Below, in pieces: positions 59 to 39,566 of a stretch of 43,612 nucleotides of DNA (positions are counted from its first letter, which is position 1; each line of letters starts with the position of its first letter). The notes beneath the pieces are model-generated. The model saw only the letters and a program-made list of their open reading frames with translations. It was not told the DNA's origin and searched no databases. The DNA comes from a virus: the IMG/VR virus record IMGVR_UViG_3300044838_000064, positions 1 through 43,612 of that record. One strand, written 5' to 3'. The position numbers and the translations under genes were made by a program.

Positions 59-730
59 ATGGAAACAAGAACTTGGACTTGGATAAAAGGAGAGAACGGC
101 AACCGATGCTCAGTTGAGCGATGGGGTAGTGAAGCCGAAGCCAAAAGAGTTTTAGCGACTCTCAAAAACTGCTCCGACTGCTCCGACTGCTCCGGCTGCT
201 CCGACTGCTCCCGCTGCTCCGACTGCTCCGACTGCTCCGGCTGCTCCGACTGCTCCGGCTGCTCCGGCTGCTCCGGCTGCTCCGGCTGCTCCCGCTGCTC
301 CGACTGCTCCGACTGCTCCGACTGCTCCGGCTGCTCCGGCTGCTCCGGCTGCTCCGGCTGCTCCCGCTTAAGAAACGCTAAACCAGTTGCCTCAGAAGAA
401 CCTCAACCCTTCGTTCCAATTATTCCGAATATCCACCAACGAGTTTACGAGGCGGCTTCAGCGCCAGGCGCGTTTAAAATGGATCAATGGCACACCTGCG
501 AGAAAAAACACTGCCGCGCTGGATGGGTCGTGACGCTAGCTGGTGAAGCTGGAAAAAAGTTAGAAGCGTTCTTCGATATGCCACTGGCCGCGATGAAGAT
601 TTATGACGCGAGTTCTACGCTTGAAAAAGTGTCTCCGGCTAGGTTCTTCGAGAATGACGACGTGGCGCTGGCCGATATGAAACGGATGGCTGAATTAGAG
701 AAGGCCGAGAATGAAAAAACGGCGATGTAA
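59..730 (+). CDS. Cys-Ser-X repeat protein with C-terminal HCRAGW domain
   Basis: A 223-residue protein in three parts. Residues 1-37 are an ordinary N-terminus. Residues 38-103 are 22 perfect Cys-Ser-X tripeptides in which X is only Asp, Gly or Arg. Residues 104-223 carry a compact domain with the signature WHTCEKKHCRAGW followed by a helical tail. From memory, similar HTC...HCRAGW domains occur in phage proteins next to pentapeptide-like repeats, but their function is unknown. The start is supported by GTGAGG about 6 bases upstream. The 3' end overlaps the small terminase gene by 20 bp, so the two are probably co-translated. Twenty-two regularly spaced cysteines could bind metal or form a rigid disulfide or solenoid-like rod; this is inference. 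Confidence 0.8.
   Translation: METRTWTWIKGENGNRCSVERWGSEAEAKRVLATLKNCSDCSDCSGCSDCSRCSDCSDCSGCSDCSGCSGCSGCSGCSRCSDCSDCSDCSGCSGCSGCSGCSRLRNAKPVASEEPQPFVPIIPNIHQRVYEAASAPGAFKMDQWHTCEKKHCRAGWVVTLAGEAGKKLEAFFDMPLAAMKIYDASSTLEKVSPARFFENDDVALADMKRMAELEKAENEKTAM
170..367 (+). repeat. 9-bp in-frame tandem repeat, 22 units
   Basis: Twenty-two consecutive units of TGC TCC NNC. Only the third codon varies, between GAC, GGC and CGC, giving Asp, Gly or Arg. The first two codons never change, even at synonymous positions, which points to recent slippage or recombination rather than old protein-level selection alone. Unit copy number can change without breaking the frame. Confidence 0.95.
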
Positions 731-1130
731 AAACGTTCCGTCGTCAAAAGTTGGACGCCGGCATCCACTTGATTTCGTGGCGGCAGAACTCGGAGTCGAT
801 CGACAGACACTGTTAAGAAGGTGTCAAGACGCGGGGCTTTCTTGTAATGGGAGCGGACTCAAATTCTCGGAGGCTTACGATGCCCTGAGTTTGAAATCCG
901 TCTCCGAAGCCGCTCGGCGCCGCAAAACTCTTGCAGAAGCGGAATCCTCAGAGATCGACACGCTCCAAAAGAAAGGACTCCTCATGTATCGAAACGACCA
1001 CGCAATGACGGTCAAAGATATCGCGGTGCAAACTCGGGTCACGGTCGAGCGTGCCGACTACGTTCCCAAGGATTCCAGGAAACGATTGCTCAAGGAATTG
1101 GCCGAAATTAAACCGAGTGCCAGGCCATGA
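711..1130 (+). CDS. terS: Terminase small subunit (Nu1-like)
   Basis: A 139-residue protein. It begins with a basic tail and a winged-helix-like segment (LGVDRQTLLRRCQDAGL, residues about 28-44), which would recognise the packaging site. A long charged helix follows (AEAESSEIDTLQKKG) and then a C-terminal segment like the Nu1 family region that contacts the large subunit. Nu1-type small terminases bind cos DNA and direct the large subunit to it. Its place directly before the large terminase genes and near the genome end agrees. The start lies inside the preceding gene and the stop overlaps the next start by 4 bp. Family assignment is by motif layout, not alignment. Confidence 0.7.
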   Translation: MKKRRCKNVPSSKVGRRHPLDFVAAELGVDRQTLLRRCQDAGLSCNGSGLKFSEAYDALSLKSVSEAARRRKTLAEAESSEIDTLQKKGLLMYRNDHAMTVKDIAVQTRVTVERADYVPKDSRKRLLKELAEIKPSARP

Positions 1131-1339
1131 CCACCGAAGCAGACAGAGAGTTAGCGGAGGAGACGGCACGAGAATTTACAAACCGGCTCTTTTGGGCGCA
1201 ATCATCACAAGCGAAATACGCAATGATCTTGGATGACTTAGGTCGAGTTATTTACAACGCCTTCGCCAAACGTGACGCACTTAAGGCCGAAAAGTTAGAG
1301 GCAGAAGCGTTTCAACGGAAACTGGATAATGAGCCATGA
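1127..1339 (+). CDS. Small MTTEADREL-family protein, copy A1
   Basis: A 70-residue protein with no recognised function. It opens with MTTEADRELAEE and contains the motif NAFAKRDALKAEKLEAEA before its C-terminus. The N-terminal motif and the last 25 residues match copy A2 (4391-4591) almost base for base, while the central 30 residues share nothing obvious. It overlaps the small terminase by 4 bp and the next member of the same family by 4 bp. Constant ends with a variable core suggest gene conversion or segment exchange between copies. Probably cytoplasmic and helical. Confidence 0.75.
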   Translation: MTTEADRELAEETAREFTNRLFWAQSSQAKYAMILDDLGRVIYNAFAKRDALKAEKLEAEAFQRKLDNEP

Positions 1340-1557
1340 CCACAGAAAACGATAGAGAGTTGGCAGAGGAAGTGGCAACTGAAATGGCCCGTGACCCTAA
1401 CGTTCGAGGCGTTGATGCCGTAGCTGCGATTGCTTCATATATTCTCGCCGCATTCGCCAAACGTGACGCAGGTAAACAAGACCCGATGGAGGCAAGCGTG
1501 CAAGACTCTCCAGACAAACCGAAACCAGAGGCTCAATATGAGGGCGACGTGATATGA
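1336..1557 (+). CDS. Small MTTEADREL-family protein, copy B1
   Basis: A 73-residue protein. It starts MTTENDRELAEE and has the family motif ILAAFAKRDAGK at residues about 47-58, followed by an acidic, proline-containing tail unlike that of A1. It is paired with A1 exactly as B2 is paired with A2 at 4391-4911. The start overlaps the stop of A1 by 4 bp. Function unknown; the context suggests accessory cargo inserted between terminase genes. Confidence 0.75.
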   Translation: MTTENDRELAEEVATEMARDPNVRGVDAVAAIASYILAAFAKRDAGKQDPMEASVQDSPDKPKPEAQYEGDVI

Positions 1558-1605: not shown

Positions 1606-1722
1606 ATGAAGGAGACCGGCTTAATTTTCAGCTCCTCGATGGTCAAGGCTTTACTGGCCGGAACCAAGATGCGCAAGCGTGGCACGGGGTCGGCCAAGAG
1701 CGTCAATGTGAATAACTTGTGA
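1606..1722 (+). pseudogene. Truncated 5' copy of the ASCH-like gene
   Basis: From the ATG at 1606 the frame reads KETGLIFSSSMVKALLAGTK, which matches residues about 78-98 of the intact ASCH-like protein at 4922-5737, with near-identical DNA over about 65 bp. The match ends at the point where the intact gene continues QTRRVIRN. Here the frame runs into the DnaA-box repeats and stops. The remnant therefore marks a second, decayed copy of the A-B-ASCH cassette. Another frame (1554-1715, 53 codons, ATGA overlap with B1) is also open and reads the remnant out of register; it may or may not be translated. Confidence 0.75.
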
Positions 1723-1860: not shown

Positions 1861-1964
1861 CGTATGAGGCCCAGTTTTTGCGCGCCCTCTGAGAAGAAGA
1901 ATATGTTTTCGTTAAAAAATCTCTTCACAGAGCACTGTGAATAACCCGGTCTTGAGTGACGACA

Positions 1965-2792
1965 ATGAAACGGATCAATAATTTTTCGGGAGGGCTTTGC
2001 TCGTTTTGGAGCGCATGGCGCGACGTGCAGGAGTTCGGCTCAGCTAATGTTGTTTTACTATTTGCTGACACGCTGATTGAATCGCCGGGGTTATACCAAT
2101 TCCTAGCCGACGCATCCAATTTGCTTGGGGTTCCCGTAACGCGCGTCTCGCGTGAACTGACCCCTTGGCAGTTGTTCCGCCAGCAGAAGATGATCGGGAA
2201 CAACCGCTTCCCGATCTGCTCAGTTTATCTCAAAAGGGAACTTTTGGATGCATGGATGGTGGGGAATTTTGAAATGGATCGCTTCCAGGAGAGCTTTCTG
2301 GAAAAAGCATCGCTGTCGGTGGGCTTCGATTGGTCAGAAGAACACCGGACCAACAATCTGCGCGCTGTGCATCCCACTTGGGAGATACGCGCGCCGATGC
2401 AGCTGGCTCCCATTTGGGACAAATGCAAAATGCAGGTTGAAGCCGAGAAACTTGGCTTGCGATTGTCAGACGCTTACAAAAAAGATGGACTTCCACACGA
2501 CAACTACGGCGGCGGTTGCGTCCGCGCGGGAATCGCCCACTGGGCGCACATCTTGCGCGTGAGGCCAAAAGTCTTTACTGAATGGGAGACAGAAGAGTGG
2601 GAGACCGCTGAGTATTTACGACGCGAAGGCATCGAACCTCTTTCAATGCTGAAAGATCGCCGAGGCGGCGAGACAAAAAACCTTTACCTGCGCGATCTGC
2701 GCGAGCGCATAGAGGCTGGAGAGGCGTTCGACAAACATGATTGGGGCGGATGTGGATGCGGTGGCGCAACCATTGGAAATCCACGTCAATGA
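1965..2792 (+). CDS. PAPS-reductase-like / adenine nucleotide alpha-hydrolase family protein
   Basis: About 275 residues. The N-terminus reads NNFSGGLCSFWSA, a variant of the PP-loop SGGxDS that binds ATP in PAPS reductases, ATP sulfurylases and tRNA-thiolation enzymes. This is followed by a Rossmann-like stretch (NVVLLFADTLIESPGLYQFL) and later GGGCVRAGIAHWAHI. The C-terminus is rich in Cys and Gly (DWGGCGCGG). The Asp of the classical PP-loop is not present at its usual place, so the exact reaction is uncertain. Phages often carry such genes, possibly for sulfur or nucleotide modification. ATG at 1965 was chosen; a GTG nine bases earlier is possible. The stop overlaps the next gene by 4 bp. 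Its place between small and large terminase is unusual. Confidence 0.7.
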   Translation: MKRINNFSGGLCSFWSAWRDVQEFGSANVVLLFADTLIESPGLYQFLADASNLLGVPVTRVSRELTPWQLFRQQKMIGNNRFPICSVYLKRELLDAWMVGNFEMDRFQESFLEKASLSVGFDWSEEHRTNNLRAVHPTWEIRAPMQLAPIWDKCKMQVEAEKLGLRLSDAYKKDGLPHDNYGGGCVRAGIAHWAHILRVRPKVFTEWETEEWETAEYLRREGIEPLSMLKDRRGGETKNLYLRDLRERIEAGEAFDKHDWGGCGCGGATIGNPRQ

Positions 2793-3979
2793 TCCTCCGA
2801 GAAGAATACACCCGCGAAGCCGAAGAGATTGCGGCTCGATCCTGGCGCGAAGGGTTGCAGCAACGCGAGGAACTCAACCCCGCACAGTGGGCCAAGAAAG
2901 AGCGGTGGATTGCTCAAGGGGCCAGTCCACTGAGCGAGACGGGGGCGATTCGATACGACGTTTCCCGGATGCCATTTTGCGAAGAGCCGATGGTGGAATC
3001 AATTAATCCTGAAGTTCAAGTCATGGTTCTCATGTGGGCGAGCGGCATGGCGAAAACAGAAGTTTGCGTCAACATCATCGGATTCAAGATTGAACATTCG
3101 CCGACAAATATCTTCGTCGTTTACCCAAAGGATGAAAGCGGACGGAAGTTCTCGCGCGACGTGTTGCAGAGATCATTGATTGACGCAACGCCATCGATTC
3201 GCCGAGTTACCGTCGAAGCAAAAAGCCGGGACATCGGAAACACGATTGGCTACAAGCGTTATTTCGGAGGCTCAATTTACATAACCTCGGCTCGATCGGC
3301 ATCGAACTTCCGTGGTCCCCGCGCTGGGGTGGTCTACTGCGACGAGATCGACGGGTTCCCATCCAGCGCCGGAGAGGAAGGAGATCCGATCATGCTCGCG
3401 TTCAAACGAGCGGAGGGATTTCCTGATTCAATCAAACTCCTCTCTGGCACTCCTACGCTCAAAAACCATTCAAATATCGAGAACTGGCTGAATCGTTCCG
3501 ACAAGAGGATGTGGTTAGTCCCATGCCGCCAGTGCGATTACGAGCAGGTGCTGATGTGGCGCAAGCGCGGAGACATTACGGAACTTCAAGCGACGATCGA
3601 TTGGCCGAAACTTGGGCGCAACCGGCATGAAAAAGCGGTCATCCTTTGTGGCCGATGCGCGGCCTCCCATAATGACTCTCAACGGCTTCAAATGATTTTC
3701 GACGGGCACTGGAAACCAACTGCACGTTTTAGCGGCATTCGTGGTTACTGGCTAAATGGGATCAACTCAACCCTTCCAGCCGAAAAAGGCTTCAAGTCAA
3801 AACTTCATCAGTTCGCGGTCAACGCTCACGATGCGAGCCATTCACATAACCGGCGGGAAACTATCAAGGTTTGGACAAATACATTTCTAGCGGAGACGTT
3901 CCAGGAAGAACAGGACGTGAAAATGGCCTGGATTTCAATGTATGAACGCCGCGAAGAATATTCTACAATCAGGGCGTAA
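2789..3979 (+). CDS. terL: Terminase large subunit, ATPase half (GpA family)
   Basis: A 396-residue protein corresponding to the N-terminal motor of lambda GpA-type terminases, which powers DNA translocation into the prohead. It has a GpA-like P-loop (MWASGMAKTE), a Walker B segment (GVVYCDEIDGF), a coupling-like motif (KLLSGTPTLKN), and a Cys pair region (PCRQCDYEQ ... CGRCAAS) typical of GpA proteins. The end (VWTNTFLAETFQEE ... YERREEY) matches the stretch that normally precedes the nuclease domain. The protein stops there. The nuclease domain is a separate gene 2.2 kb downstream (6209-7015). Start chosen at 2789 because it gives an ATGA overlap. Confidence 0.88.
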   Translation: MILREEYTREAEEIAARSWREGLQQREELNPAQWAKKERWIAQGASPLSETGAIRYDVSRMPFCEEPMVESINPEVQVMVLMWASGMAKTEVCVNIIGFKIEHSPTNIFVVYPKDESGRKFSRDVLQRSLIDATPSIRRVTVEAKSRDIGNTIGYKRYFGGSIYITSARSASNFRGPRAGVVYCDEIDGFPSSAGEEGDPIMLAFKRAEGFPDSIKLLSGTPTLKNHSNIENWLNRSDKRMWLVPCRQCDYEQVLMWRKRGDITELQATIDWPKLGRNRHEKAVILCGRCAASHNDSQRLQMIFDGHWKPTARFSGIRGYWLNGINSTLPAEKGFKSKLHQFAVNAHDASHSHNRRETIKVWTNTFLAETFQEEQDVKMAWISMYERREEYSTIRA

Positions 3980-4182
3980 TGAAATTACAGGCCGTGACCA
4001 CAGAAGAATTACGGATAAAGGTGACGGAACCTAAGTGGCCGCATTGGTTTGATAAACGGACCATGCTAGAGGCTAACAACCTGAAGTTTACCATTGCAAT
4101 CCTACTTGGTTGGGAAGATGACCCTATGCACGGGCCGCTAGACGATCAATGGTTTCATCGAGCAACGCATCAACCGACCTGA
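3979..4182 (+). CDS. Small hypothetical protein in the terminase insertion
   Basis: A 67-residue protein starting at a TAATG overlap with the terminase ATPase gene. No family recognised. An internal GTG at 3994 would give MTTEELRIKV, resembling the start of the MTTEADREL family, so this may be a fifth, diverged member starting there with AGG a few bases upstream. Confidence 0.55.
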   Translation: MKLQAVTTEELRIKVTEPKWPHWFDKRTMLEANNLKFTIAILLGWEDDPMHGPLDDQWFHRATHQPT

Positions 4183-4394
4183 ACGCCTGTGCGGAGTTTG
4201 AGAAGACGCTAACCGACATGAGTGATTATTACGAATATTTGCAACAACTTCTTTTTATAACAGGGAGTTTTGAGAAGGCCGTATTTGCCACCGCCGAACA
4301 ACGCTGCCGCGCTTTCGTGAAGGTGAAGGAGAATTGGCTACCAGATATCACAGGGGCTTTACACGGAAACCTTAATCGACCTGAGATTCTATGA
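4149..4394 (+). CDS. Small hypothetical protein
   Basis: Eighty-one residues from the first ATG. An alternative ATG at 4218 gives 58 residues and avoids the 34-bp overlap with the preceding frame. It contains FATAEQRCRAFVKVKENW, a helical pattern I associate with small phage proteins of unknown role. The stop overlaps the start of A2 by 4 bp. Part of the cargo between the terminase halves. Confidence 0.6.
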   Translation: MVSSSNASTDLNACAEFEKTLTDMSDYYEYLQQLLFITGSFEKAVFATAEQRCRAFVKVKENWLPDITGALHGNLNRPEIL

Positions 4395-4591
4395 CCACCG
4401 AAGCAGACAGAGAGTTGGCGAGAGAGACCGCACGAAATATTCTTCATGCTCCAATACTGAGACTGATACCGGAAGAGAAGATTGACTGCTTGTCAAAAAT
4501 AGTCTTAGCCACATTCGCCAAACGTGACGCACTTAAGGCCGAAAAGTTAGAGGCAGAAGCGTTTCAACGGAAACTGGATAACGAGCCATGA
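4391..4591 (+). CDS. Small MTTEADREL-family protein, copy A2
   Basis: Sixty-six residues. The N-terminus (MTTEADRELARETAR) and the last 27 residues (FAKRDALKAEKLEAEA onwards) match A1 at 1127-1339 nearly exactly at DNA level, differing by about one base over the last 75 bp. The central 25 residues differ. It overlaps both neighbours by 4 bp. Function unknown. Confidence 0.75.
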   Translation: MTTEADRELARETARNILHAPILRLIPEEKIDCLSKIVLATFAKRDALKAEKLEAEAFQRKLDNEP

Positions 4592-4911
4592 CCACCACCG
4601 AAGCAGATAGAGAGTTAGCCAAAGACCTTAGAATAGATATCGAGGAAGAGATCGAAGGAATTACAGAATTCCTCCCTAAAGAAAAGCGAGCAGTTGAAAA
4701 CAAAATTCTTGCAGCCTTCGCAAAACGTGACTCAGGCAAAATGACGGACACGGAGAGGCTGGATTGGTTAGACGTGAATGAGAGGTTAAATAGCGCGGAA
4801 AAAGGAGACCAATTTCAGCATTGCATTCTTAACGCGCAAAGTAACCCGACATCCATATCGTTCGGCAAAACTCTCCGAGAGTGTATTGACAGAGCCATGT
4901 CCCAGCCATGA
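4588..4911 (+). CDS. MTTEADREL-family protein with extra C-terminal domain, copy B2
   Basis: A 107-residue protein. The N-terminal half follows the family pattern (MTTTEADRELAKD, then ILAAFAKRDSGK). From residue 52 it continues with MTDTERLDWLDVNERL ... GKTLRECIDRAMSQ, a layout that also exists as stand-alone small phage proteins. B2 therefore looks like a fusion of a family core with a second common phage module. Its partner B1 has a different tail. Function unknown. Confidence 0.75.
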   Translation: MTTTEADRELAKDLRIDIEEEIEGITEFLPKEKRAVENKILAAFAKRDSGKMTDTERLDWLDVNERLNSAEKGDQFQHCILNAQSNPTSISFGKTLRECIDRAMSQP

Positions 4912-4921
4912 AAGAAAACCC

Positions 4922-5737
4922 ATGAACCAGCCCGAAACCAAGCCAAGTGAGAGAAACTTCGGAGGAATCCAGTGGATCGCGGAAGGCTACCCGCTCTCGA
5001 AGATCAGAGAGAAGGCTGAGGAAATATTTTCGAAGAGAGTGACTGCCGTCTGCAAGTTAATAAACGACGCTAGGCAGACCGATCTTTTCCAAGATGCGCT
5101 TGATGAAGATGGACATTGCCGGAACGTCTTGCGGACTGCTCTGCGGAAAATGAAATCGACCGGCCTGATTTTCAGCTCCTCGATGGTCAAGGCTTTGCTG
5201 GCCGGAACCAAGACGCAGACGCGCAGAGTTATTCGTAACGTCCCGGATGATACAATAGAGATTTTGCCAGTTCCGGATAAACGCTGGCGACCTTATGATC
5301 GCCAGTTTTTGTCCACTGGTCACGGCTTTCGTTGTCCCTACGGAGTAGCTGGCGATCAGATTTGGGTGAGAGAGACATGGCAGAATGATCCCGCCGGAAA
5401 ATGGGGTACGTGCTATCGCGCTAGCGGACATAACCAGCTTTGTAAGTTTCACGGGCACCTGTGGCGACCATCAATTTTCATGCCACGATGGGCGTCCCGT
5501 ATCACGCTTGAGCTGACGCGCGTCAGAGTCGAGAAACTTCAAAGCATCAGCGAGGAAGATGCCGTTGCGGAAGGGTGTGTTGGAGGGATGGGTCAGGCGA
5601 CAATAAAGAGCGAGCGGTTCGGCTGCTGTATGCCAGGCGCAGTTTATCAATACGCCGTCCTTTGGGACTCACTCCACGGCGAGGGAAACTGGGCTGAAAA
5701 TCCGTGGGTGTGGGTGCTGGAATTTCGCAAGCTGTGA
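4922..5737 (+). CDS. ASCH-domain-like phage protein
   Basis: A 271-residue protein. Residues about 78-271 carry the conserved phage pattern LIFSSSMVKALLAGTKTQTRRV, then CPYGVAGDQIWVRETW, PSIFMPRWASRITLEL and ISEEDAVAEG, ending in WVWVLEFRKL. This fits the ASCH/PUA-like fold, thought to bind RNA or modified nucleotides. The first 77 residues are a separate helical segment, so this may be a fusion; the decayed copy at 1606 starts only at the ASCH part, and a second start at 5151 would give the ASCH part alone. It sits between the terminase halves. Function in phages is not established. Confidence 0.75.
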   Translation: MNQPETKPSERNFGGIQWIAEGYPLSKIREKAEEIFSKRVTAVCKLINDARQTDLFQDALDEDGHCRNVLRTALRKMKSTGLIFSSSMVKALLAGTKTQTRRVIRNVPDDTIEILPVPDKRWRPYDRQFLSTGHGFRCPYGVAGDQIWVRETWQNDPAGKWGTCYRASGHNQLCKFHGHLWRPSIFMPRWASRITLELTRVRVEKLQSISEEDAVAEGCVGGMGQATIKSERFGCCMPGAVYQYAVLWDSLHGEGNWAENPWVWVLEFRKL

Positions 5738-5739
5738 CA

Positions 5740-5994
5740 ATGAAATTCTGGGAGTGTGTCGCGGTCTTAATTGCGGTCGAGAGCGGGCATTACAGGAGAA
5801 GTTATCCCCTTTTTGAATCAGAGGCGCGGCATTCACTTCGACTCTGCCAGGCGCGCCGTGACGAGATTGACGAGGAATTGGGAATTGCCGGGGATATCAT
5901 CCTTTCTGAAGGATTGGAGTTACTCAAAACTGATCGGCGAAAGTTCATGCGGGAAACTGCCATCGCATTGCAAGAAAGGTATTCGAGAAATTGA
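5740..5994 (+). CDS. Small hypothetical protein
   Basis: Eighty-four residues starting two bases after the ASCH stop. An N-terminal hydrophobic stretch (FWECVAVLIAV) is too short for a sure membrane span. The rest is charged and helical. No family recognised. It continues the tightly packed cargo operon. Confidence 0.6.
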   Translation: MKFWECVAVLIAVESGHYRRSYPLFESEARHSLRLCQARRDEIDEELGIAGDIILSEGLELLKTDRRKFMRETAIALQERYSRN

Positions 5995-6212
5995 GCACGG
6001 AAACCATTCACATTTTCACCGCCCGTAATCAGCCCGCGACTAAATATATCGATAAATGTTCTGGGCATTCAATGCGATTCAAGAATAATCCTCGCCGGCA
6101 AATCTTCTCATGGTGTTGCCGGAAACGTCGCTATGCGCGTCATCTGAGTGTTCAAGTATTTTATGACTCGATTCGGTTTTTTTGTCTGCCAGGGGAAGGT
6201 TGCAAAAGATGA
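5991..6212 (+). CDS. Small basic Cys-containing protein upstream of terminase nuclease
   Basis: Seventy-three residues from a TTG start that overlaps the preceding stop. It is basic and has several Cys and His (CSGHSMRF, SWCCRKRRYARH, CLPGEGCKR), possibly a small metal-binding protein. The stop overlaps the start of the nuclease half of the terminase (ATGA, 6209-6212), so its translation could be coupled to the nuclease. It might instead be a decayed leader; confidence is moderate. Confidence 0.5.
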   Translation: MSTETIHIFTARNQPATKYIDKCSGHSMRFKNNPRRQIFSWCCRKRRYARHLSVQVFYDSIRFFCLPGEGCKR

Positions 6213-7015
6213 TCGCGTTCGACTTCGCGGTCCCGCAACCGGTTAAATTAATTAGCGCAGGGGTAGATTTTCAGATTGATCGTTGCGAACTTGAATTCGT
6301 CGGTTGGGGAGAAGGCGAAGAAACATGGGGCTTGGGTTATGTTGTCCTTCCTGGGGATTTCTCGCAGATGCAACAGAAGGGTCGTCCTTGGGCCTACGAC
6401 CAGCTTGAAGCGACGTTACTGCGACAATTCATCCGGGAAGACGGAGCGAGGATGCAAGCAGTCTGTGGAGCTTTTGATACCGGCTTTGCTGGAACGCAGC
6501 GGGCACTTTACCAATATCTTCGACCTCGATACGCAAGAAGATATTTTGCAACCAAAGGCGCGAGCGCGAAATGGGCGCCGATGATTGCGCAGGGCCGGCG
6601 AGATGAGCGCATCCGACTTTTCATCATCGGGACCAATCGTGCCAAAGCCCTCTGGTATCGTCGGGCGACAATCAGTGTCCACGGTCCCGGATTCATGCAC
6701 ATCCCAAAGACTGATGATTACGGCGAGGAATGGTTCAAGCAGTTTTTATCGGAAGATTCGCACACGGAACGAGACAAGGGCGTTGAGATGCAGATTTTCA
6801 ACCTGCCCGCGACTCCAGCCGAGGGCGGATCATCGCATAACGAGGCTCTTGATGTTCGAGTTGAAGCCTTGGCTGCACTTTACATTCGCGGGCCGGTCTC
6901 GTGGGACCAAGAGGAAAAAAGAAATCTCGCGACAATCCCTGTCATTGGTAAAAAAGAGGCGTCGGAACGGGGCGCGCCTCGACCACGGAAGCAGTCTAAT
7001 TGGCTGCGATGGTAG
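6209..7015 (+). CDS. Terminase large subunit, nuclease half (GpA family)
   Basis: A 268-residue protein that matches the C-terminal endonuclease domain of GpA-type terminases: ISAGVDFQIDRCELEFVGWGEGEETW, then WAYDQLEATL, FDTGFAG, RYFATKGAS and a C-terminal SHNEALDVRVEALAAL. Asp in AGVDFQ and the later acidic residues are candidates for metal binding. The domain normally follows the ATPase in one chain. Here an in-frame TGA at 6164 and the ATG at 6209 make it a separate gene, with AGGGGAAGG about 8 bases upstream as a good ribosome binding site. It presumably assembles with the ATPase half (2789-3979) into a two-chain large terminase. Confidence 0.85.
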   Translation: MIAFDFAVPQPVKLISAGVDFQIDRCELEFVGWGEGEETWGLGYVVLPGDFSQMQQKGRPWAYDQLEATLLRQFIREDGARMQAVCGAFDTGFAGTQRALYQYLRPRYARRYFATKGASAKWAPMIAQGRRDERIRLFIIGTNRAKALWYRRATISVHGPGFMHIPKTDDYGEEWFKQFLSEDSHTERDKGVEMQIFNLPATPAEGGSSHNEALDVRVEALAALYIRGPVSWDQEEKRNLATIPVIGKKEASERGAPRPRKQSNWLRW

Positions 7016-7090: not shown

Positions 7091-7642
7091 ATGTCGGTCG
7101 CCGCAGTCACTCAATTTCCGAATTCCTTTATCGCTGGCGATGCAGTCCGGGTGACAATCGCGAACCCAAATTATCCGTCCTCGCTCTGGACGCTCAAGGT
7201 CTGGTTCCAAAATGGGATTACGGTTCAAAGTTTTACCGCTCCCGCCGGTTCCGCGGATGCATACGATCTATTTATCACTCCAGAAGAATCCGCCGCGATT
7301 CCAGCCGGCCAATATTTAATCGCCTACATTTTCACAGAGATCGCGTCGCCGAACGACAGGAAAAGCCTCGATTGGAAATCGACTGTCGCAGTTTACGCCA
7401 ATCCCGCGGTTGCGACTGCGAAAACAGTCGCGCGGCAAACCCTGGAAGCGATGGAGGCCGCATATCTGTCTCTCTCCAGCGGAGGGTTAATGCAATCTGT
7501 GAATTTCAACGGGCAATCGTTCACGAACCATAATTTATCGGACTTCGCCACCGCAATCGAACGGCAACGCGCGATTGTGGCGGGAGAAGATGCGGCCCGG
7601 CTCGGCCATCGGAGAATTTCCAGTATCTTTCATCCGTTATGA
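7091..7642 (+). CDS. Head-joining protein with gpW-like C-terminus (putative)
   Basis: A 183-residue protein. Residues 1-105 are beta-rich and immunoglobulin-like. Residues 110-175 (ARQTLEAMEAAYLSLS ... VNFNGQSFTNHNLSDFATAIERQRA) follow the gpW-type pattern of helix, short beta hairpin and helix. In lambda, gpW sits between terminase and portal genes and closes the head for tail joining; the gene is in exactly that position. The added N-terminal domain is unusual. The stop overlaps the portal start by 4 bp. Confidence 0.55.
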   Translation: MSVAAVTQFPNSFIAGDAVRVTIANPNYPSSLWTLKVWFQNGITVQSFTAPAGSADAYDLFITPEESAAIPAGQYLIAYIFTEIASPNDRKSLDWKSTVAVYANPAVATAKTVARQTLEAMEAAYLSLSSGGLMQSVNFNGQSFTNHNLSDFATAIERQRAIVAGEDAARLGHRRISSIFHPL

Positions 7643-9663
7643 GTAAACCAGTGAAAAACTCCAAGAATCGTCCGAGAAAAAAACGCGCGTTCAGTTCTGG
7701 TCTAACGGGCGGACAGGTGAGCGGAGGTTATTCTGGCGGTCAAGCTAATCGGCAAAATAACTGGTTGATCTCCGGACTTTCGGCGGACGCGGAAATTCGC
7801 ACTCATCTTTTCCTCCTGCGCAATCGTTGCCGCGACCTTGAGCGCAATAATGACTACGCACGAGCCTTCGGGGAGGATGTCGAATCAAACACTCTCGGAA
7901 GCGAAGGCGTCCTCGTTCAAATGAAAGTGAAAGAGGAATCCGACCGGATCATTCACACTTCGGAAGAAAAACAGTTCATTAAATATTTTGAAGGGGCCAC
8001 CAATGATCGCCGCAAAAAACTAAGAGATAGCCTGAAACGTCGCGGCGTGGACGCGGGGCTGCTCAATGAGATGTTCCCAGAAATCAAACTCCTCCATCAA
8101 AATGGCAATCGCGCAGCGAAAGTTTTGAAAGGTCAACCGGACGTTTTCGCAAACGACCAGATTGAAAAGGCATGGAGAACATTCGGCCTGAAAGAAAATT
8201 TCACCGTCACGCGCGAGATTACCCGGCACGAAGGCGAGAGGATGTGGTTGCGTTCGACCTGGCGCGATGGCTCATGTCTCGTCCGAAAAGTCAAAGGCTT
8301 TGGTAACGAGTTCGGATTCGCTCTCCAGTTTATCGACATGGACTGGCTCGACCTCAATTACAACGTTCGCCGGCTCGAAAACGGCAACGAAGTGCGGATG
8401 GGCAAGGAATACAATTCGTGGAAAGAATGCGTCGCGTATTACATCATTGTCCGAAGTCCCGGAGATTGGATGTGGTCAACCGGAGTCTCTGGGTATTCGA
8501 CCGGCGCGGCAGGGAGATTTGCGCGAACCCGAATCGACGCGAGCGAAATTGTTCACGGTTATTTACGGGAACGAATCGACCAATCGCGCGAGGTTCCCTG
8601 GCTCGTTTCGGCGATCACACGGCTGCACATGCTCGGAAAATATGAAGAGGCTGAACTTGTCGCCAGCCTGCTCTCGGCCAGAAAAACCGGGACGTGGTAT
8701 TCAGACCTCTTTTCCGATAATGCTACACTAACAAAAGATTTCTCCATGACAGAGAGGGGAGAGTTCGAGGAAGCGACTGAGCCTGGTCAGGACACGATCG
8801 CGCCCTTTGGCTGGAAATATCAAGTCAATGACCCGAAACATCCCAACACAAACGTTGAACAATTTCGCAAGGTGATGCTCCAAGGAATTTCGGCGGCACT
8901 CCCCGGGGCTAGCTATCACCGAATTTCCCAGGACCCTTCCGGTTTAAGTTTCTCGAACCTCCGCGGAATCGAGCTTCAATCGCGGGAAAGTTGGATGATG
9001 ATTCAACGTTTCATGCAAGACAATTTCCACACCGAGATTTTCGAGCCATTCCTGGAAGCCGGACTGATGAGCGGGAAAATCCCTCTCCCTGTTTCAAAAT
9101 TCGACAAGTTCAACGCGCCTTATTGGATTTTCCGGAGATGGAAGGGAATCGATCCAATCAAAGAAGCGGAGGCAAACAAATTAAATCTTCTCCTTTGCAA
9201 CACAACACGAACAAAGATTGCGGCCGAGAGCGGGCACGATTTTGAAGAGATCATCGAGCAACTCGTGCTTGAAGAGGAAATGCTAGAGGTAGCCGGACTG
9301 CAATCCCTCTCATTAGGTGCTCTTGGCGGCACCGCCCCAAGTGACGGAAATTCCGCGAGCGACGAGCCTGATCTGAAGGAGGAAGATGGAACTAATCCGA
9401 AGCAGAAAGCAGAAGCCTACGAATCGGGCGCTCGTTCGGGGCTAATAACTCCACAGGAGGAAGACGAGACGAGTTTTCGTCAAAGACTTGGACTGCCGGA
9501 ACTTTCCCCAGAAGCAAAAGCAAAACGCGCCGAGAAATCCAGAAACCCAAGACCGCAAAAGAAGAGGGTTAAATTCCTTCACGATTCAAGCGGGAAATTA
9601 GTGGGAGCCGAGGCGGAAACCCTTAGCGTCAATGGCTCTAAAAAGATGGAGTTCTCCCAATGA
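7639..9663 (+). CDS. Portal protein (lambda gpB family)
   Basis: A 674-residue protein, slightly longer than lambda gpB. It has the lambda-portal order: N-terminal LLRNRCRDLERNNDYARAF, then ESNTLGSEGVLVQ, FTVTREITRHEGERMWLRS, FIDMDWLD, IVHGYLRERIDQSREVPWL, the long stem helix region, and LPGASYHRISQDPSGLSFSN. The last 120 residues are acidic and lysine-rich and probably disordered. It forms the twelve-subunit ring at the head vertex through which the terminase pumps DNA. ATGA overlaps link it to both neighbours. Confidence 0.9.
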   Translation: MSKPVKNSKNRPRKKRAFSSGLTGGQVSGGYSGGQANRQNNWLISGLSADAEIRTHLFLLRNRCRDLERNNDYARAFGEDVESNTLGSEGVLVQMKVKEESDRIIHTSEEKQFIKYFEGATNDRRKKLRDSLKRRGVDAGLLNEMFPEIKLLHQNGNRAAKVLKGQPDVFANDQIEKAWRTFGLKENFTVTREITRHEGERMWLRSTWRDGSCLVRKVKGFGNEFGFALQFIDMDWLDLNYNVRRLENGNEVRMGKEYNSWKECVAYYIIVRSPGDWMWSTGVSGYSTGAAGRFARTRIDASEIVHGYLRERIDQSREVPWLVSAITRLHMLGKYEEAELVASLLSARKTGTWYSDLFSDNATLTKDFSMTERGEFEEATEPGQDTIAPFGWKYQVNDPKHPNTNVEQFRKVMLQGISAALPGASYHRISQDPSGLSFSNLRGIELQSRESWMMIQRFMQDNFHTEIFEPFLEAGLMSGKIPLPVSKFDKFNAPYWIFRRWKGIDPIKEAEANKLNLLLCNTTRTKIAAESGHDFEEIIEQLVLEEEMLEVAGLQSLSLGALGGTAPSDGNSASDEPDLKEEDGTNPKQKAEAYESGARSGLITPQEEDETSFRQRLGLPELSPEAKAKRAEKSRNPRPQKKRVKFLHDSSGKLVGAEAETLSVNGSKKMEFSQ

Positions 9664-13640: not shown

Positions 13641-14021
13641 ATGAAAATTCTCAGCCCGCTCTTTTTCGGACTCTTATTGGCGTCCTGCGTGTCTCCCATA
13701 GCGATCAAGACGAAACCGAAGCCAGCAGTCATTGCGAAGCCTGCGATCGCCACGCGGCAAAGTTCATCCATCGCAGCGACCAATTCGACCAAGCAACTGA
13801 TGTGGAATACCAATTCGCCGACTGAACTCGTCCTGGCCTACAAGGTTTACGAGGTAATGCCGCGAATCGGGACAACGCCTGCCTATTGGCGGAACATCGG
13901 CAGCGCAAACGTCCCAGGATTTTCGGTGACTGGTCTGACCGGCAGTATTCATATCTATGCCGTTACCGCATTCAATGCTGTCGAAAGCCCGAAGTCGGTG
14001 CCACTGATTGTGAGGCTGTAA
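13641..14021 (+). CDS. FN3-like lipoprotein, copy 1
   Basis: A 126-residue predicted lipoprotein. The N-terminus MKILSPLFFGLLLASC is a lipoprotein signal with the modified Cys at 16. Residues about 53-126 look like one fibronectin type III domain (LAYKVYEVMP ... [22 protein letters not shown]). It would be exported and anchored in a membrane of the infected cell. It is a close paralogue of the lipoprotein at 29263-29637. In both places it follows fibre-like genes and precedes the J-domain/NUMOD3-like gene. A role in superinfection exclusion or lysis is possible but unproven. Confidence 0.75.
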   Translation: MKILSPLFFGLLLASCVSPIAIKTKPKPAVIAKPAIATRQSSSIAATNSTKQLMWNTNSPTELVLAYKVYEVMPRIGTTPAYWRNIGSANVPGFSVTGLTGSIHIYAVTAFNAVESPKSVPLIVRL

Positions 14022-14776
14022 TGACCGAACTGGTCAAATCGCGGTGGCAGTATGGCAATCGATCACAGCGAGTAGATGGCCTGCTCGATTCTCTTGGGAT
14101 TCGATACCGCCAAATGGCGGGTCAAGATTTCTGGCAGGCAAACAAAGAGCATTTGGCTGTCCTCTATCATGAACTCCAAGTTGAAGCTCGGAATCGGATA
14201 CGAGAGCTCCACCCGGACAACGGTGGCGATGGGTACGCTTTTAGTGATTTCGTGAGCACCTACAAAAAGGTTTTACGGCAATTCGTCCGCTACGGAGCGA
14301 CGAGCCTGCTTCAATCGCAAATAGACGAGGGCGCAGAAGTCTTGACTGTGCGCTCGGGCCAGTTCCGTAATCCAGGCAGGGCAATCGAGATGATGAAATT
14401 GATTCTAACTGGCGTCACCGATTCAGAGGTGGTGAGACGTTTCAGTAGTTCACTTGCAACGGCCGCCAAGGTGCGCCGAGCAATCGGGAGAGTCTGTTTT
14501 TGCGAATGCGGCCGGCCTGGTAATCATCGGGGCTGGTGCGAAGCTCGACCGCACCCAAACCGGCAGGGGTTCCAGAGGCTCGGGCGCAAACCAGGGTTCA
14601 AAATTGACGCGGAGACCAAAGCCAAGATGAGTCTCGCACGCACAGGCAAGCATCACACCGCGCAGTCCCGGCGACGAATTGGAGATGCGAACCGTCTTCA
14701 TCACGCTCGCAACCCACAGCCGCGTATTGGAAGTAGATGGACAACGTGGGATAAGGAACTCGAAATAACAGCATGA
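14021..14776 (+). CDS. J-domain-like / NUMOD3-like DNA-binding protein, copy 1
   Basis: A 251-residue protein that shows four parts. Residues about 42-88 resemble a J-domain: a helix, the HPD motif at 64-66 (RELHPDNGGDG), and a second helix (AFSDFVSTYKKVL). Residues 130-155 look like a helix-turn-helix (GVTDSEVVRRF). Residues 159-173 hold a Cys cluster (CFCECGRPGNHRGWC), a possible zinc ribbon. Residues 192-226 match the NUMOD3 pattern of homing-endonuclease DNA-binding modules (DAETKAKMSLARTGKHHTAQ). J-domains recruit Hsp70; NUMOD3 binds DNA. No nuclease motif is visible. TAATG overlap with the lipoprotein gene. A close paralogue lies at 29637-30386. Confidence 0.6.
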   Translation: MTELVKSRWQYGNRSQRVDGLLDSLGIRYRQMAGQDFWQANKEHLAVLYHELQVEARNRIRELHPDNGGDGYAFSDFVSTYKKVLRQFVRYGATSLLQSQIDEGAEVLTVRSGQFRNPGRAIEMMKLILTGVTDSEVVRRFSSSLATAAKVRRAIGRVCFCECGRPGNHRGWCEARPHPNRQGFQRLGRKPGFKIDAETKAKMSLARTGKHHTAQSRRRIGDANRLHHARNPQPRIGSRWTTWDKELEITA

Positions 14777-29266: not shown

Positions 29267-29637
29267 GAATTTTCGGAGCATTAATCTGCTCACTTTTATT
29301 AGCGTCTTGCGCGTCTCCGGTAGGGATTAAAAACAAGCCCGTGGCTACCTCGAAGCCTGCGATTGCCACGCGCCAGAGTAGGTCCATCGCGGCGACCAAT
29401 TCGACGAAGCAATTGACGTGGAACGCCAACCCGCCGGCTGAACACATTACGGCATACCGGGTTTACGAGGTGATGCCGCGAATCGGGACAACGCCTGCCT
29501 ATTGGCGGAACATCGGCAGCGCGGCCGTCCCAGGCTTTTCGGTGACTGGCCTGAGCGGCAGTATTCACGTCTATGCCGTTACTGCGTTCAACGCTGTCGA
29601 GAGCCCGAAGTCGGTTCCGATAATCGTAAAGATGTGA
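29263..29637 (+). CDS. FN3-like lipoprotein, copy 2
   Basis: A 124-residue paralogue of 13641-14021. It keeps the lipobox (LLLASC, Cys16) and the FN3-like domain; the stretch from [11 protein letters not shown] to the end is almost unchanged. The start is a GTG overlapping the previous stop. The N-terminal signal sequence has diverged more than the mature domain, which suggests selection on the exported part. Confidence 0.75.
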
Positions 29638-30386
29638 TGAACGAACTGGTGAAATCACGGTGGCACTACGGCAACCGATCACAGCGAGTAAGCGCATTGC
29701 TCGACTCTCTTGGGATTCCATATCGACAAATGGCGGGCCAGGATTTTTGGCAAGCAAACAAGGAGCATCTGGCTGTCCTCTACCGCGAACTCCAGAGTGA
29801 AGCACGGGACCGGATACGAGAACTCCACCCGGACAATGGTGGTGACGGGCACGCTTTCGGTGATTTCGTGAGCACCTACAAAAAAGTTCTGCGACAATTC
29901 GTCCGCTACGGAGCGATGAACGTGGTCCGATCGCAAGTAGAAGAGGGCGCAGAAGTCTTGACCGTGCGCTCGGGCCAATTCCGTAATCCTGGCAGGGCAA
30001 TCGAGATGATGAAATTGATTCTGACCGGTGTCACCGACTCGGAGGTGGTCAGACGTTTCCGTAGTTCTCTTGCAACGGCCGCCAAGGTGCGCCGAGCAAT
30101 CGAGAAAGTTTGTCTTTGCGAGTGCGGCCGGCCCGGTAATCATCGAGGCTGGTGCGAAAGTCGACCGCATCCAAATCGGCAGGCGCTCGGGCGCAAACCG
30201 GGGTTCAGGATTGACGCAGAGACCAAACGGAAAATGAGTCTCGCGCGCATAGGCAAGCATCACACCGCGCAGTCCAGGCGACGAATTGGAGATGCGAACC
30301 GTCTTCATCAGGCGCGCAATCCGCAGCCGCGGATTGGAAGTAGATGGACAACCTGGAATAAGGAACCGTTAAAGATCGCCGCATGA
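29637..30386 (+). CDS. J-domain-like / NUMOD3-like DNA-binding protein, copy 2
   Basis: A 249-residue paralogue of 14021-14776, roughly 85 percent identical by eye. The HPD motif (RELHPDNGGDG), the Cys cluster (CLCECGRPGNHRGWC) and the NUMOD3-like segment (DAETKRKMSLARIGKHHTAQ) are all kept. A 3-residue stretch is missing before LGRKPG. Conservation of all parts in both copies argues that the whole protein is under selection. It starts at a TGATG overlap with the lipoprotein. Confidence 0.6.
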   Translation: MNELVKSRWHYGNRSQRVSALLDSLGIPYRQMAGQDFWQANKEHLAVLYRELQSEARDRIRELHPDNGGDGHAFGDFVSTYKKVLRQFVRYGAMNVVRSQVEEGAEVLTVRSGQFRNPGRAIEMMKLILTGVTDSEVVRRFRSSLATAAKVRRAIEKVCLCECGRPGNHRGWCESRPHPNRQALGRKPGFRIDAETKRKMSLARIGKHHTAQSRRRIGDANRLHQARNPQPRIGSRWTTWNKEPLKIAA

Positions 30387-36823: not shown

Positions 36824-38227
36824 ATGGAGTATCACAATTTTCTTAAAAACAAAACGCAACTAAGCGGGCAATTCGGATTCAAGCCCACGTTCATTCCTGA
36901 TCGTGTTTTTGATTTCCAGAAGGCTCTTATTGAGTGGTCGGTCGAGAAAGGTAGGGGCGCGATCTTCGCTGATTGCGGTCTTGGAAAAACTCTCATCCAA
37001 CTTGCCTGGGCGGAGAATGTTATTCGTAAGGAAAATGGGCCAGTCTTGGTAATCACTCCGCTAGCGGTGGGTCATCAGACAGTGACGGAAGGAGAGAAAT
37101 TCGGCATTGAAGCGATCAAGAGTTCAAATGGAAAGTTTCCATCAGGAGCAAAAATCATCGTTACGAATTACGAGCGTCTACATTACTTCGATGCGCGGCA
37201 TTTCGTTGGAGTTGTTTGTGATGAATCCTCGATCTTAAAAAACTTTGACGGGGCGACACGCGCCGCGATCACGGAGTTTATGCGGACTCAGAAATACAGA
37301 CTCCTTTGCACGGCGACCGCGGCCCCTAACGATTACATTGAATTAGGGACGTCCAGTGAAGCAGTTGGAGAGCTCGGACATATAGAAATGTTACAGAGGT
37401 TCTTCAAAGCGAATGATGATTCTTATGCTCAGGGCGGCGGCGCAAGTGGTCGCACGCGATTCAGTGGCCCGGAATCATTCGTAGGAAAGTTCCGGTTCCG
37501 GGGACACGCCGAGAGGGATTTTTGGCGCTGGATTTGCAGCTGGTCGCGCGCCCTGCGTAAACCCTCTGACATGGGGTTTAATGACGGGGATTTTCAACTT
37601 CCACCCCTAGAGACACGGCAGCACGTTGTGAAAACAGAGACGCCTCCTGACGAGTATTTATTCACGCTTCCGGCTTGCGGATTGGCGGAGCAGAGATCTG
37701 AACGGCGCCGCACATTAAACGAGCGATGCGAACTTACTGCTGAGATCCATAACACTTGCGGCGAATCATCACTTGCTTGGTGCCACTTGAATTCAGAAGG
37801 AGATCTCCTCGCGAAACTCATTCCTGATTCAGAACAACTATCAGGCGACGATTCAGACGAAAGAAAAGAGGAAGTATTCGCCGCATTTCAGGCAGGCAAA
37901 TTGCGCGTCCTAATAACTAAGCCAACGATCGCCGGATTTGGGTTGAACTTCCAGCATTGTGCGCGGCAAACATTTTTTCCGTCACATAGTTTCGAGCAAT
38001 GGTATCAAGCCGTGCGCAGGTCGTGGCGGTTCGGACAGAAAAAGAAAGTGGTAGTTGATGTCATTAGTTCCGATGGCGAAGCAAGTGTGCTGGCGAACCT
38101 CGAAAGAAAATCAGAAGCAGCCTCGAAAATGTTCGATCAAATCGTTTCGCTTATGGGCCAGGAGTTGAACATCAAGGCGATCAACAATCACGTTAAGAAA
38201 CAGAAAATCCCTACATGGCTGTCATAG
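36824..38227 (+). CDS. SF2 DEAD/SNF2-like helicase
   Basis: About 467 residues. Motif I is FADCGLGKTLIQLAWAE, motif II is VVCDESSILKN (DExx variant), motif III-like LLCTATAAPND, and C-terminal motifs include LITKPTIAGFGLNFQHC and QAVRRSWRFGQ (motif VI). This order fits SNF2-type translocases found in phages. AGGGA five bases before ATG 36824 favours that start over GTG 36797. Its 3' end overlaps the next gene, a DNA methyltransferase, by 13 bp, so the two probably act together. It may help methylation, replication or escape from restriction. Confidence 0.85.
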   Translation: MEYHNFLKNKTQLSGQFGFKPTFIPDRVFDFQKALIEWSVEKGRGAIFADCGLGKTLIQLAWAENVIRKENGPVLVITPLAVGHQTVTEGEKFGIEAIKSSNGKFPSGAKIIVTNYERLHYFDARHFVGVVCDESSILKNFDGATRAAITEFMRTQKYRLLCTATAAPNDYIELGTSSEAVGELGHIEMLQRFFKANDDSYAQGGGASGRTRFSGPESFVGKFRFRGHAERDFWRWICSWSRALRKPSDMGFNDGDFQLPPLETRQHVVKTETPPDEYLFTLPACGLAEQRSERRRTLNERCELTAEIHNTCGESSLAWCHLNSEGDLLAKLIPDSEQLSGDDSDERKEEVFAAFQAGKLRVLITKPTIAGFGLNFQHCARQTFFPSHSFEQWYQAVRRSWRFGQKKKVVVDVISSDGEASVLANLERKSEAASKMFDQIVSLMGQELNIKAINNHVKKQKIPTWLS

Positions 38228-39174
38228 ATCAACTCATCCACGATCAATTCGCACTCTACAATGGAGACTGTCTTGAGGTTTTGCCAACGCTTCCTAAAGA
38301 CTCAATCGACCTCAGTATTTATTCGCCGCCATTTTGCGGGCTCTACAATTATTCCAGTTCAGAGCGCGACATGTCGAATTGCCGGGATTACAAAGAGTTT
38401 TTCCAGCACTACGGATTTCTCTTAAAAGAGATTTTGCGACTGACTAAGCCGGGTCGATGCACGGCGGTTCATTGCATGGACATTCCAAGGGCGGGCGCGA
38501 ATCTGGCCGGAGGACTAACGGATTTTCCAGGAGACATAATCCGCGCCCATGAAAAACTTGGTTTCACTTACTGCGCCCGATATCACGTCTGGAAAGAACC
38601 TCTCGGCGTGCGAAACCGAACAATGGCGAAAGGATTAGCTCATCGACAAATCGTAGAAGATTCAAGTCTGTGTGATTGCGCGAGCGCCGATTACCTTTTG
38701 TTGTTCAGAAAAAAAGGGACCAACGCTGCCCCTGTCACTCACGAACAAGGGTTATCGGAATATGTCGGGGAACGTCAGATCCCGAACGATCTCGTTGCCT
38801 ACCGAGGGTGGACTGGAAAGCAAACCGAAAACCGCCTTTCTCATTGGATTTGGCGACAATACGCGAGTGCATTCTGGGATGACGTTCGAATTGGTCGAGT
38901 GCTGCCATATAAAGAAGCTGGCGACCCGGATGACGAGCGTCATGTGCATCCCCTTCAACTCGATGTAATTGAGCGCACAATAATCCTTCGTTCTAATCCG
39001 GGCGAAGTCATCCTCACGCCGTTCGCAGGAGTAGGTTCGGAAGTTTACGGTGCGCTAATTAATCAACGAAGGGCGATTGGAGTTGAGTTGAAATCTTCCT
39101 ATTACCGGCAAGCGATAGCGAATTGCCGGGATGCGCTTACGAATGCGCCGCAAATCACCCTAGATGACGTGTGA
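38215..39174 (+). CDS. Beta-class DNA methyltransferase (N6-A or N4-C)
   Basis: A 319-residue protein. The catalytic motif IV, DLSIYSPPFCGLYNYSSSE, comes first and the AdoMet-binding motif I, LTPFAGVGSEVYGA, comes near the C-terminus, the beta-class order. SPPF leaves the target base open: N4-cytosine or N6-adenine. A HIWRQYASAFW-like middle may form the target recognition region. It overlaps the SF2 helicase upstream, a common phage pair. No restriction endonuclease of the same system is visible. Confidence 0.88.
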   Translation: MAVIDQLIHDQFALYNGDCLEVLPTLPKDSIDLSIYSPPFCGLYNYSSSERDMSNCRDYKEFFQHYGFLLKEILRLTKPGRCTAVHCMDIPRAGANLAGGLTDFPGDIIRAHEKLGFTYCARYHVWKEPLGVRNRTMAKGLAHRQIVEDSSLCDCASADYLLLFRKKGTNAAPVTHEQGLSEYVGERQIPNDLVAYRGWTGKQTENRLSHWIWRQYASAFWDDVRIGRVLPYKEAGDPDDERHVHPLQLDVIERTIILRSNPGEVILTPFAGVGSEVYGALINQRRAIGVELKSSYYRQAIANCRDALTNAPQITLDDV

Positions 39175-39566
39175 AAAATGGACCGCCCGAACTCTGCTGC
39201 GAACCAAGATGTAAAAATGCGAGACGTAAAGATCGCCGTCGATGCTACAAGTGCGATGCAAGACGCAAACGCGCAGCAAATCCGATGTGGGCTGCATGGC
39301 GGGCACTCAAGGACCACGCCAAGAGCCGGGGTATTCGATTTACTCTCAGTCTTCGCGCGTTCCGTTTCTTCGCGATTGCGACTTCGTATCTCAACCGAAC
39401 TGGAAACAGCCGGGACTGTCTTACGGTCGATAGGATCGACAACAAAAAAGGATACACACCCAAAAATATCCAAGCGCTGACGCGAGCAGAAAACTCAATG
39501 AAAAGAGCCCGGCAAGATGCCATCCGATTCAAGGCGGGATTCGCCTGGAAAGAAAAATACAAATGA
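39171..39566 (+). CDS. HNH-like protein with N-terminal zinc-finger pattern
   Basis: A 131-residue protein from a GTG overlapping the methyltransferase stop. The N-terminus has a Cys pattern (CCEPRCKNARRKDRRRCYKC). The C-terminus reads LTVDRIDNKKGYTPKNIQAL with TRAENSMKR, the ending of a common phage HNH family. The first His of HNH is replaced by Asp (VDRID), as in many members. Possibly a homing or packaging-related nuclease. It overlaps the clamp gene by 4 bp. Confidence 0.65.
   Translation: MKNGPPELCCEPRCKNARRKDRRRCYKCDARRKRAANPMWAAWRALKDHAKSRGIRFTLSLRAFRFFAIATSYLNRTGNSRDCLTVDRIDNKKGYTPKNIQALTRAENSMKRARQDAIRFKAGFAWKEKYK

Follow-up and report, generated by a model that had tools for sequence, protein, structure and literature searches.

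A GpA-type large terminase gene in two pieces, with a candidate insertion port for endonuclease and cargo genes

The divided terminase gene

The stretch of DNA analysed here, called the window throughout, is a 43,612-base IMG/VR virus record (IMGVR_UViG_3300044838_000064), in which the gene for a large terminase of the GpA type is found as two separate coding regions:

2789..3979, + strand: terminase large subunit, ATPase half, 396 residues; GpA_ATPase domain followed by GpA_nuclease profile positions 1-70, also assigned by fold
6209..7015, + strand: terminase large subunit, nuclease half, 268 residues; GpA_nuclease positions 71-289, fold also modelled

The first of these open reading frames (ORFs) matches PF05876 (GpA_ATPase; E=3.8e-56, 190.9 bits against a cut-off of 25.6) and carries, after the ATPase domain, positions 1-70 of PF20454 (GpA_nuclease); positions 71-289 of this endonuclease profile are found in the ORF starting at ATG 6209 (E=9e-39; 133.8 bits against a cut-off of 22.5 for the domain). 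The profile is divided at 70/71 between the two ORFs with neither overlap nor gap, and PHROG agrees on the split, placing positions 336-705 of phrog_15 in the ATPase half and 708-978 in the nuclease half. Compared with intact GpA proteins, whose chains continue across the junction, the two halves abut with zero residues missing; the two domains that GpA carries in one chain lie here in two ORFs, 2.2 kb apart. The first-pass annotation of this DNA had proposed such a split into ATPase and nuclease genes and a search of both halves against GpA profiles, and both halves do match. It had also named a complete GpA gene elsewhere as a finding that would speak against a split; no second GpA gene or domain is present in the whole 43.6-kb record.

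The break falls in the linker between the domains. In intact GpA proteins, 0-10 residues separate the motif 'RREeY' from the motif 'lP..v..lTagvDvQ'; members of the split family have an ATPase half that ends just past 'RREEY' and a nuclease half that starts 6 residues ahead of 'VP..VKLIsAGVDFQ'. The length of this linker is variable among intact relatives too, the break site being thus a tolerant place. It lies at most about 20 residues ahead of the first invariant catalytic aspartate (D20 of the nuclease half, in the GVD motif), which, together with D90 and D215, is invariant in an alignment of 20 nucleases, both split and intact.

Both genes have start signals of their own. The ATG of the ATPase half (2789) overlaps the stop codon of the preceding phosphoadenosine-phosphosulfate reductase-like gene; the nuclease half, to which an ATG and a ribosome site of its own had correctly been attributed, has a Shine-Dalgarno-like GGGGAAGG about 9 nt 5' of ATG 6209. 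A longer nuclease ORF, starting at TTG 6182, is possible, but ATG 6209 is the start kept in all five related sequences considered below.

Relatives with the same break

The same split, which the earlier annotation had suggested looking for in related contigs, was found by scans of IMG/VR in four further contigs (L004, L005, L008 and L031), where a separate nuclease gene starts at the identical place; together with the window, the split set comprises five contigs from four metagenomes. The end of the ATPase half is visible at the matching place in L004 and L005. The four are arranged as follows:

L004: ATPase half to 830; HNH ORF 814-1365 (phrog_374, E=1.1e-35); nuclease half from 1362
L005: ATPase half to 877; N6/N4 DNA methylase 909-2593 (PF01555; broken only by two Ns); nuclease half from 2590
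L031: end of a putative C5-methylase (read from the translation); lipoprotein-like ORF; nuclease half from 203
L008: end of a putative C5-methylase and lipoprotein-like ORF; HNH ORF 203-802 (PF13392, E=1.4e-13); nuclease half from 799

In all five contigs the nuclease ATG overlaps the upstream stop codon as ATGA, and the cargo ahead of it differs from contig to contig: among the relatives, an HNH gene is the sole cargo of L004, L005 has a DNA methylase, and L031 and L008 share the putative C5-methylase end and the lipoprotein-like ORF, to which L008 adds an HNH gene. Counting one in antisense in L005, HNH genes are thus present in three of the five contigs (L004, L005 and L008). The antisense HNH ORF of L005 (1240-1713) lies inside the methylase gene, whose frame is open through the insert.

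In the outgroups examined the terminase is unbroken: homologues at 27-58% identity form a single intact ORF wherever the contig spans both domains, in keeping with the earlier statement that GpA terminases are normally one chain, and the large matches met in 60 phage records, a sample spread over 718, cover both domains without interruption. A search of IMG/VR with a relaxed DNA pattern for DFQIDRxEL yielded no additional members, and no prophage relatives were confirmed among 84,980 genomes scanned. The split members form one clade both in the nuclease tree (26 rows; support 100/99) and in the ATPase tree (23 rows; 100/100), with the intact terminase of contig L036 adjoining in each (99/95 and 97/96, respectively); the simplest reading of this single clade is that the split arose once. 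As far as their genes tell, these contigs are a small, previously unrecognised group of phages with a two-gene terminase.

Two of the contigs, L008 and L031, come from one metagenome and have, at one site, alleles with and without the endonuclease gene, a situation not found for the window. Their first 255 bases are 98% identical, and L008 departs from L031 at the 18th codon of the nuclease gene, where L031 reads ...LITAG|TDFQIDR and the HNH frame of L008 reads ...LITAG|CSVSGC... The L008 HNH gene opens with the beginning of the nuclease gene as found in L031 (53 of 54 bases identical); behind it, the nuclease gene begins anew with its first 18 codons in recoded form, of which 34 of 54 bases (63%) and 14 of 18 residues are retained. 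The HNH gene has thus appropriated the original start codon of the nuclease, which now has a new, recoded one. From the catalytic codons onwards L008 rejoins L031 at 97% identity, so that the proportion of synonymous differences (pS) between the two is 0.81 in the recoded 54-bp copy vs 0.07 in the following 180 bases. Both flanks of the insertion have high identity, which drops to 66-82% within a few hundred bases further downstream; in this single case, the profile would be that expected after co-conversion. We infer both the activity of the HNH protein and its cleavage site, and recoding would hide that site from the endonuclease. To the extent that sequences can show it, the pair shows that a selfish DNA-cutting gene can insert exactly at the place of the break without destroying the enzyme.

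Between the split members, synonymous sites are near saturation while the ratio of nonsynonymous to synonymous differences (pN/pS) is 0.17-0.33 in both halves; both are under purifying selection. Modelled with AlphaFold2 from 18-20 homologues per half, each half alone is predicted to fold with confidence (predicted template modelling score 0.82 for the nuclease half and 0.84 for the ATPase half), low confidence being limited to the termini and a few loops, and in a fold search the ATPase model matches the terminase ATPase domains of T4 gp17 and P74-26 (E to 1.8e-6).

These observations bear on the notion that the locus is a broken, decaying terminase of defective prophages, or an artefact of assembly. 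All of the contigs are metagenomic and four begin near or inside the locus, as such an explanation might have it; however, the nuclease is split off at one site in five contigs from four metagenomes, both halves keep the low pN/pS just given at saturated synonymous change, the catalytic aspartates are invariant, and the portal and head genes of the window are intact. Because both halves are conserved at such divergence and are predicted to fold independently with confidence, decay or artefact is very improbable.

The earlier annotation had left a choice between a two-chain motor and an intervening RNA element that is removed; the first is favoured by the shared split, the selection and the predicted folds, and the second finds little in its support. 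The halves would there be rejoined at the RNA level, the 2.2-kb block being a cargo-carrying self-splicing intron or a part of one. Terminase genes of other phages do carry group I introns with endonucleases, ICP1 terL being spliced (PMC10448857), and, like intron sites, the break is close to a conserved motif. Against this, no ribozyme core of a group I or II intron was matched in the intervening block, no Rfam family at E<=1 was found in positions 3700-6500 of the window or in any of the four relatives, and a scan of the whole window for Rfam intron families found none. In addition, all five nuclease genes keep their ATG within the ATGA overlap, and the ATPase frame is terminated by a stop codon in every member that shows it. 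In L004 the lone HNH ORF spans the entire gap and extends into both halves; a ribozyme would hardly fit there, which is a strong argument against an intron. Rejoining by RNA splicing is therefore unlikely, with only a small chance of being right.

Rejoining at the protein level would require a split intein, as in 'fractured genes', in which, as Dassa and co-workers are said to have described in 2009, a free-standing endonuclease lies between the split-intein halves. Such genes with a free-standing endonuclease are cited in PMC6892783 for MIJ3 polB. In the present family, the ATPase half ends 2-8 residues past its last alignable position and the nuclease half begins about 6 before its first; so few extra residues leave no room for N- or C-intein domains, and N- and C-intein segments are absent from both halves. 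Searches of the window proteins found no intein family, which bears out the earlier remark that no intein is visible, and a split intein can be given next to no credence.

The cargo block and its surroundings

The 2229 bp from the stop of the ATPase half (3979) to the ATG of the nuclease half (6209) are filled by seven ORFs, the number of small genes first reported there, and several of them are repeated beside the putative small terminase, as had also been stated. The block and its neighbours on either side are:

711..1130, + strand: putative small terminase, helix-turn-helix-like protein; placed by position alone, with no family match above noise
1127..1557, + strand: two small ORFs (1127-1339 and 1336-1557), paralogues of cargo ORFs 4391-4591 and 4588-4911
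1606..1679, + strand: 5'-end fragment of a phrog_874-type gene (second copy), counterpart of cargo positions 5150-5223
1956..2792, + strand: phosphoadenosine-phosphosulfate reductase-like gene (phrog_424, E=3.3e-18)
3979..4182, + strand: cargo ORF 1, overlapping the ATPase stop as TAATG; no family
4149..4394, + strand: cargo ORF 2; no family
4391..4591, + strand: cargo ORF 3, paralogue of ORF 1127-1339
4588..4911, + strand: cargo ORF 4, paralogue of ORF 1336-1557
4886..5737, + strand: cargo ORF 5, phrog_874 family (function unassigned; E=1.3e-66); frame open from TTG 4886, the real start possibly further 3'
5704..5994, + strand: cargo ORF 6; no family
5991..6212, + strand: cargo ORF 7, cysteine-rich; its stop overlaps the nuclease ATG (ATGA)
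7639..9663, + strand: lambda-type portal protein, the expected next packaging gene (PF05136, E=4.7e-66)

Two cargo ORFs and part of a third are duplicated beside the putative small terminase: 1262-1343 and 4514-4595 are 99% identical over 82 nt, another stretch of the paralogues is 89% identical over 45 nt, and 1606-1679 and 5150-5223 are 86% identical over 74 nt. Scans of the cargo block for promoters and terminators gave no more than shuffled sequence. The gap of the window contains neither a recognisable endonuclease nor a relic of a duplicated end, and its present cargo is therefore best seen as a later replacement, made in part from duplicates of genes that lie next to the small terminase.

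Several features lie elsewhere in the window. All six of its copies of TTATNCACA, a DnaA-box consensus, are found in positions 1707-1944, in both orientations, where 0.61 would be expected in the window as a whole; this cluster, just 5' of the packaging genes, is a possible replication origin or DnaA-binding array. In positions 59-730 a 9-nt unit (Cys-Ser-Asp/Gly/Arg, CSDCSG...) occurs about 22 times, which gives the encoded protein a simple cysteine- and serine-rich repeat. Two related proteins of about 295 residues, one of them with LAEHRQRKRPRIFGDW, are encoded 15.6 kb apart at 13886-14776 and 29502-30386 and belong to no PHROG family. A DNA methylase, an HNH/endonuclease VII-like gene and a phage sliding clamp (DnaN-like) follow one another with end-to-end overlaps at 38215-40624.

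Origin of the two chains and comparison with known systems

These considerations suggest, with a probability of about 0.78, that the locus encodes a GpA-type large terminase in two pieces, with motor and nuclease as separate proteins and the gap as a port for endonucleases and cargo. That a two-chain terminase is in use, its chains coupled in translation and re-associating afterwards, is very likely as far as the genes tell. The ATPase motor and the RNase-H-like nuclease would be translated separately from one tightly overlapping operon, the nuclease gene retaining its own start codon and being translated by stop-start (ATGA) coupling; the two chains would then assemble on the portal through their native interdomain surface, as the halves of split enzymes do. 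Assembly in trans is what we infer, indirectly, from the selection on both halves and from their autonomous predicted folds. The break sits in the variable-length interdomain linker just ahead of the first catalytic motif (GVD), and the gap would be a recurrent insertion port, in which homing-type HNH genes, DNA methylases and small genes are swapped.

For the origin of the split, it is proposed that the conserved GVD codons were the insertion site of an endonuclease gene, which brought with it a recoded nuclease 5' end with a start codon. An endonuclease as the original cause is probable to a modest degree, and less certain than the use of two chains because L031 was already split before the HNH gene entered L008; HNH genes may instead have colonised an older gap. 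A second reading takes these phages as a two-chain lineage in which the nuclease is exchangeable and the inherited port is kept open by HNH genes that insert at the GVD codons and supply a recoded 5' end and start; if true, this would be a one-step route by which an essential gene becomes two and still functions. The reading is offered tentatively, with the odds somewhat against it. According to a third, the gene was divided by ordinary fission unrelated to endonucleases, and morons, including HNH genes, could then settle safely in the gap. L031 and the window, whose cargo holds no recognisable endonuclease at the site, and the duplication of the window cargo from near the small terminase, a mark of ordinary recombination, are in its favour; however, HNH genes are present in three of the five contigs and are the sole cargo in L004, and the L008/L031 pair has the HNH gene at conserved catalytic codons together with a recoded host end. 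Ordinary fission is a serious contender, if a doubtful one.

Several further points weigh against the two-chain, endonuclease-port reading. Only five split contigs are known, all metagenomic, and L008 and L031 begin downstream of the expected ATPase half, so that the nuclease half alone is visible in them. The nuclease model has only weak matches to RNase-H-like folds (RuvC and Ydc2, with HK97 TerL at rank 50; best E=1.6e-3), and a PDB sequence search with the nuclease profile gave no match. Searches of Pfam- and PHROG-type families recognised no endonuclease in the window's own cargo, and the link to homing, absent from the first-pass annotation, therefore rests on the relatives. A search for remnants of duplicated ends (5' of the nuclease gene, 3' of the ATPase gene) in the cargo of the window, L004 and L005 gave nothing above shuffled background; L008 alone is positive.

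Large terminases are usually treated as single chains, with a covalent link between motor and nuclease. A natural two-chain terminase, with motor and nuclease as separate subunits, would make it possible to test directly whether the switch between translocation and cutting requires that link. The L008/L031 pair would be a sequence-level snapshot of a selfish endonuclease breaking an essential gene yet keeping it working, and it would also illustrate how such a break can come to serve as a port for accessory genes, methylases among them.

No unspliced two-gene terminase was met in the literature searched, which covered few subscription journals and is no proof of absence. The canonical terminases lambda gpA, AcaML1 and L036 agree with the window in the order of their homologous domains and in the residues at the junction, but have one ORF of about 600-720 residues where the window has two. 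Mobile endonucleases are known to target terminase genes, which carry introns or inteins in ICP1 (terL; PMC10448857), Campylobacter phage IBB_35 (PMC3322345) and Mic1 (PMC7156551); these are re-joined by RNA or protein splicing, whereas the split terminase shows no splicing element. The T4 gene 39/60 topoisomerase with mobA, and the split gene 43 DNA polymerases of Aeromonas phages (PMC2988022), are likewise phage enzymes in two chains associated with homing endonucleases; they are different enzymes, and what split gene 43 is undecided too.

By analogy, the closest precedent would be nrdA-a/mobE/nrdA-b of phage Aeh1, in which an HNH homing endonuclease gene splits a ribonucleotide reductase gene (Friedrich et al., 2007; reviewed in PMC2988022). 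There, two chains form the active enzyme by experiment, no intron is present, and stop-start overlaps suggest coupling (PMC2988022); the present locus resembles it in having a conserved gene in two coding regions, with no residues lost, no intron, and stop-start overlaps. It differs in that the gene is a terminase, known here from sequence, in that the gap exchanges many kinds of cargo, and in that the endonuclease gene of L008 comes with the 5' end of its host gene in recoded form. This last property is shared with the LAGLIDADG and GIY-YIG mobile ORFs of fungal mitochondria (Allomyces and Glomus; atp6, atp9, cox2 and nad3), which carry a recoded gene end (PMC3630166): in both, the inserted endonuclease gene supplies a recoded copy of the part that is cut off, with a DNA identity of 63.5% in Glomus atp6 (PMC3630166) and 63% in L008. 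The fungal ORFs, however, replace the C-terminus and leave the host protein as one chain, whereas the ORF of L008 would supply the N-terminal end of a downstream half-gene.

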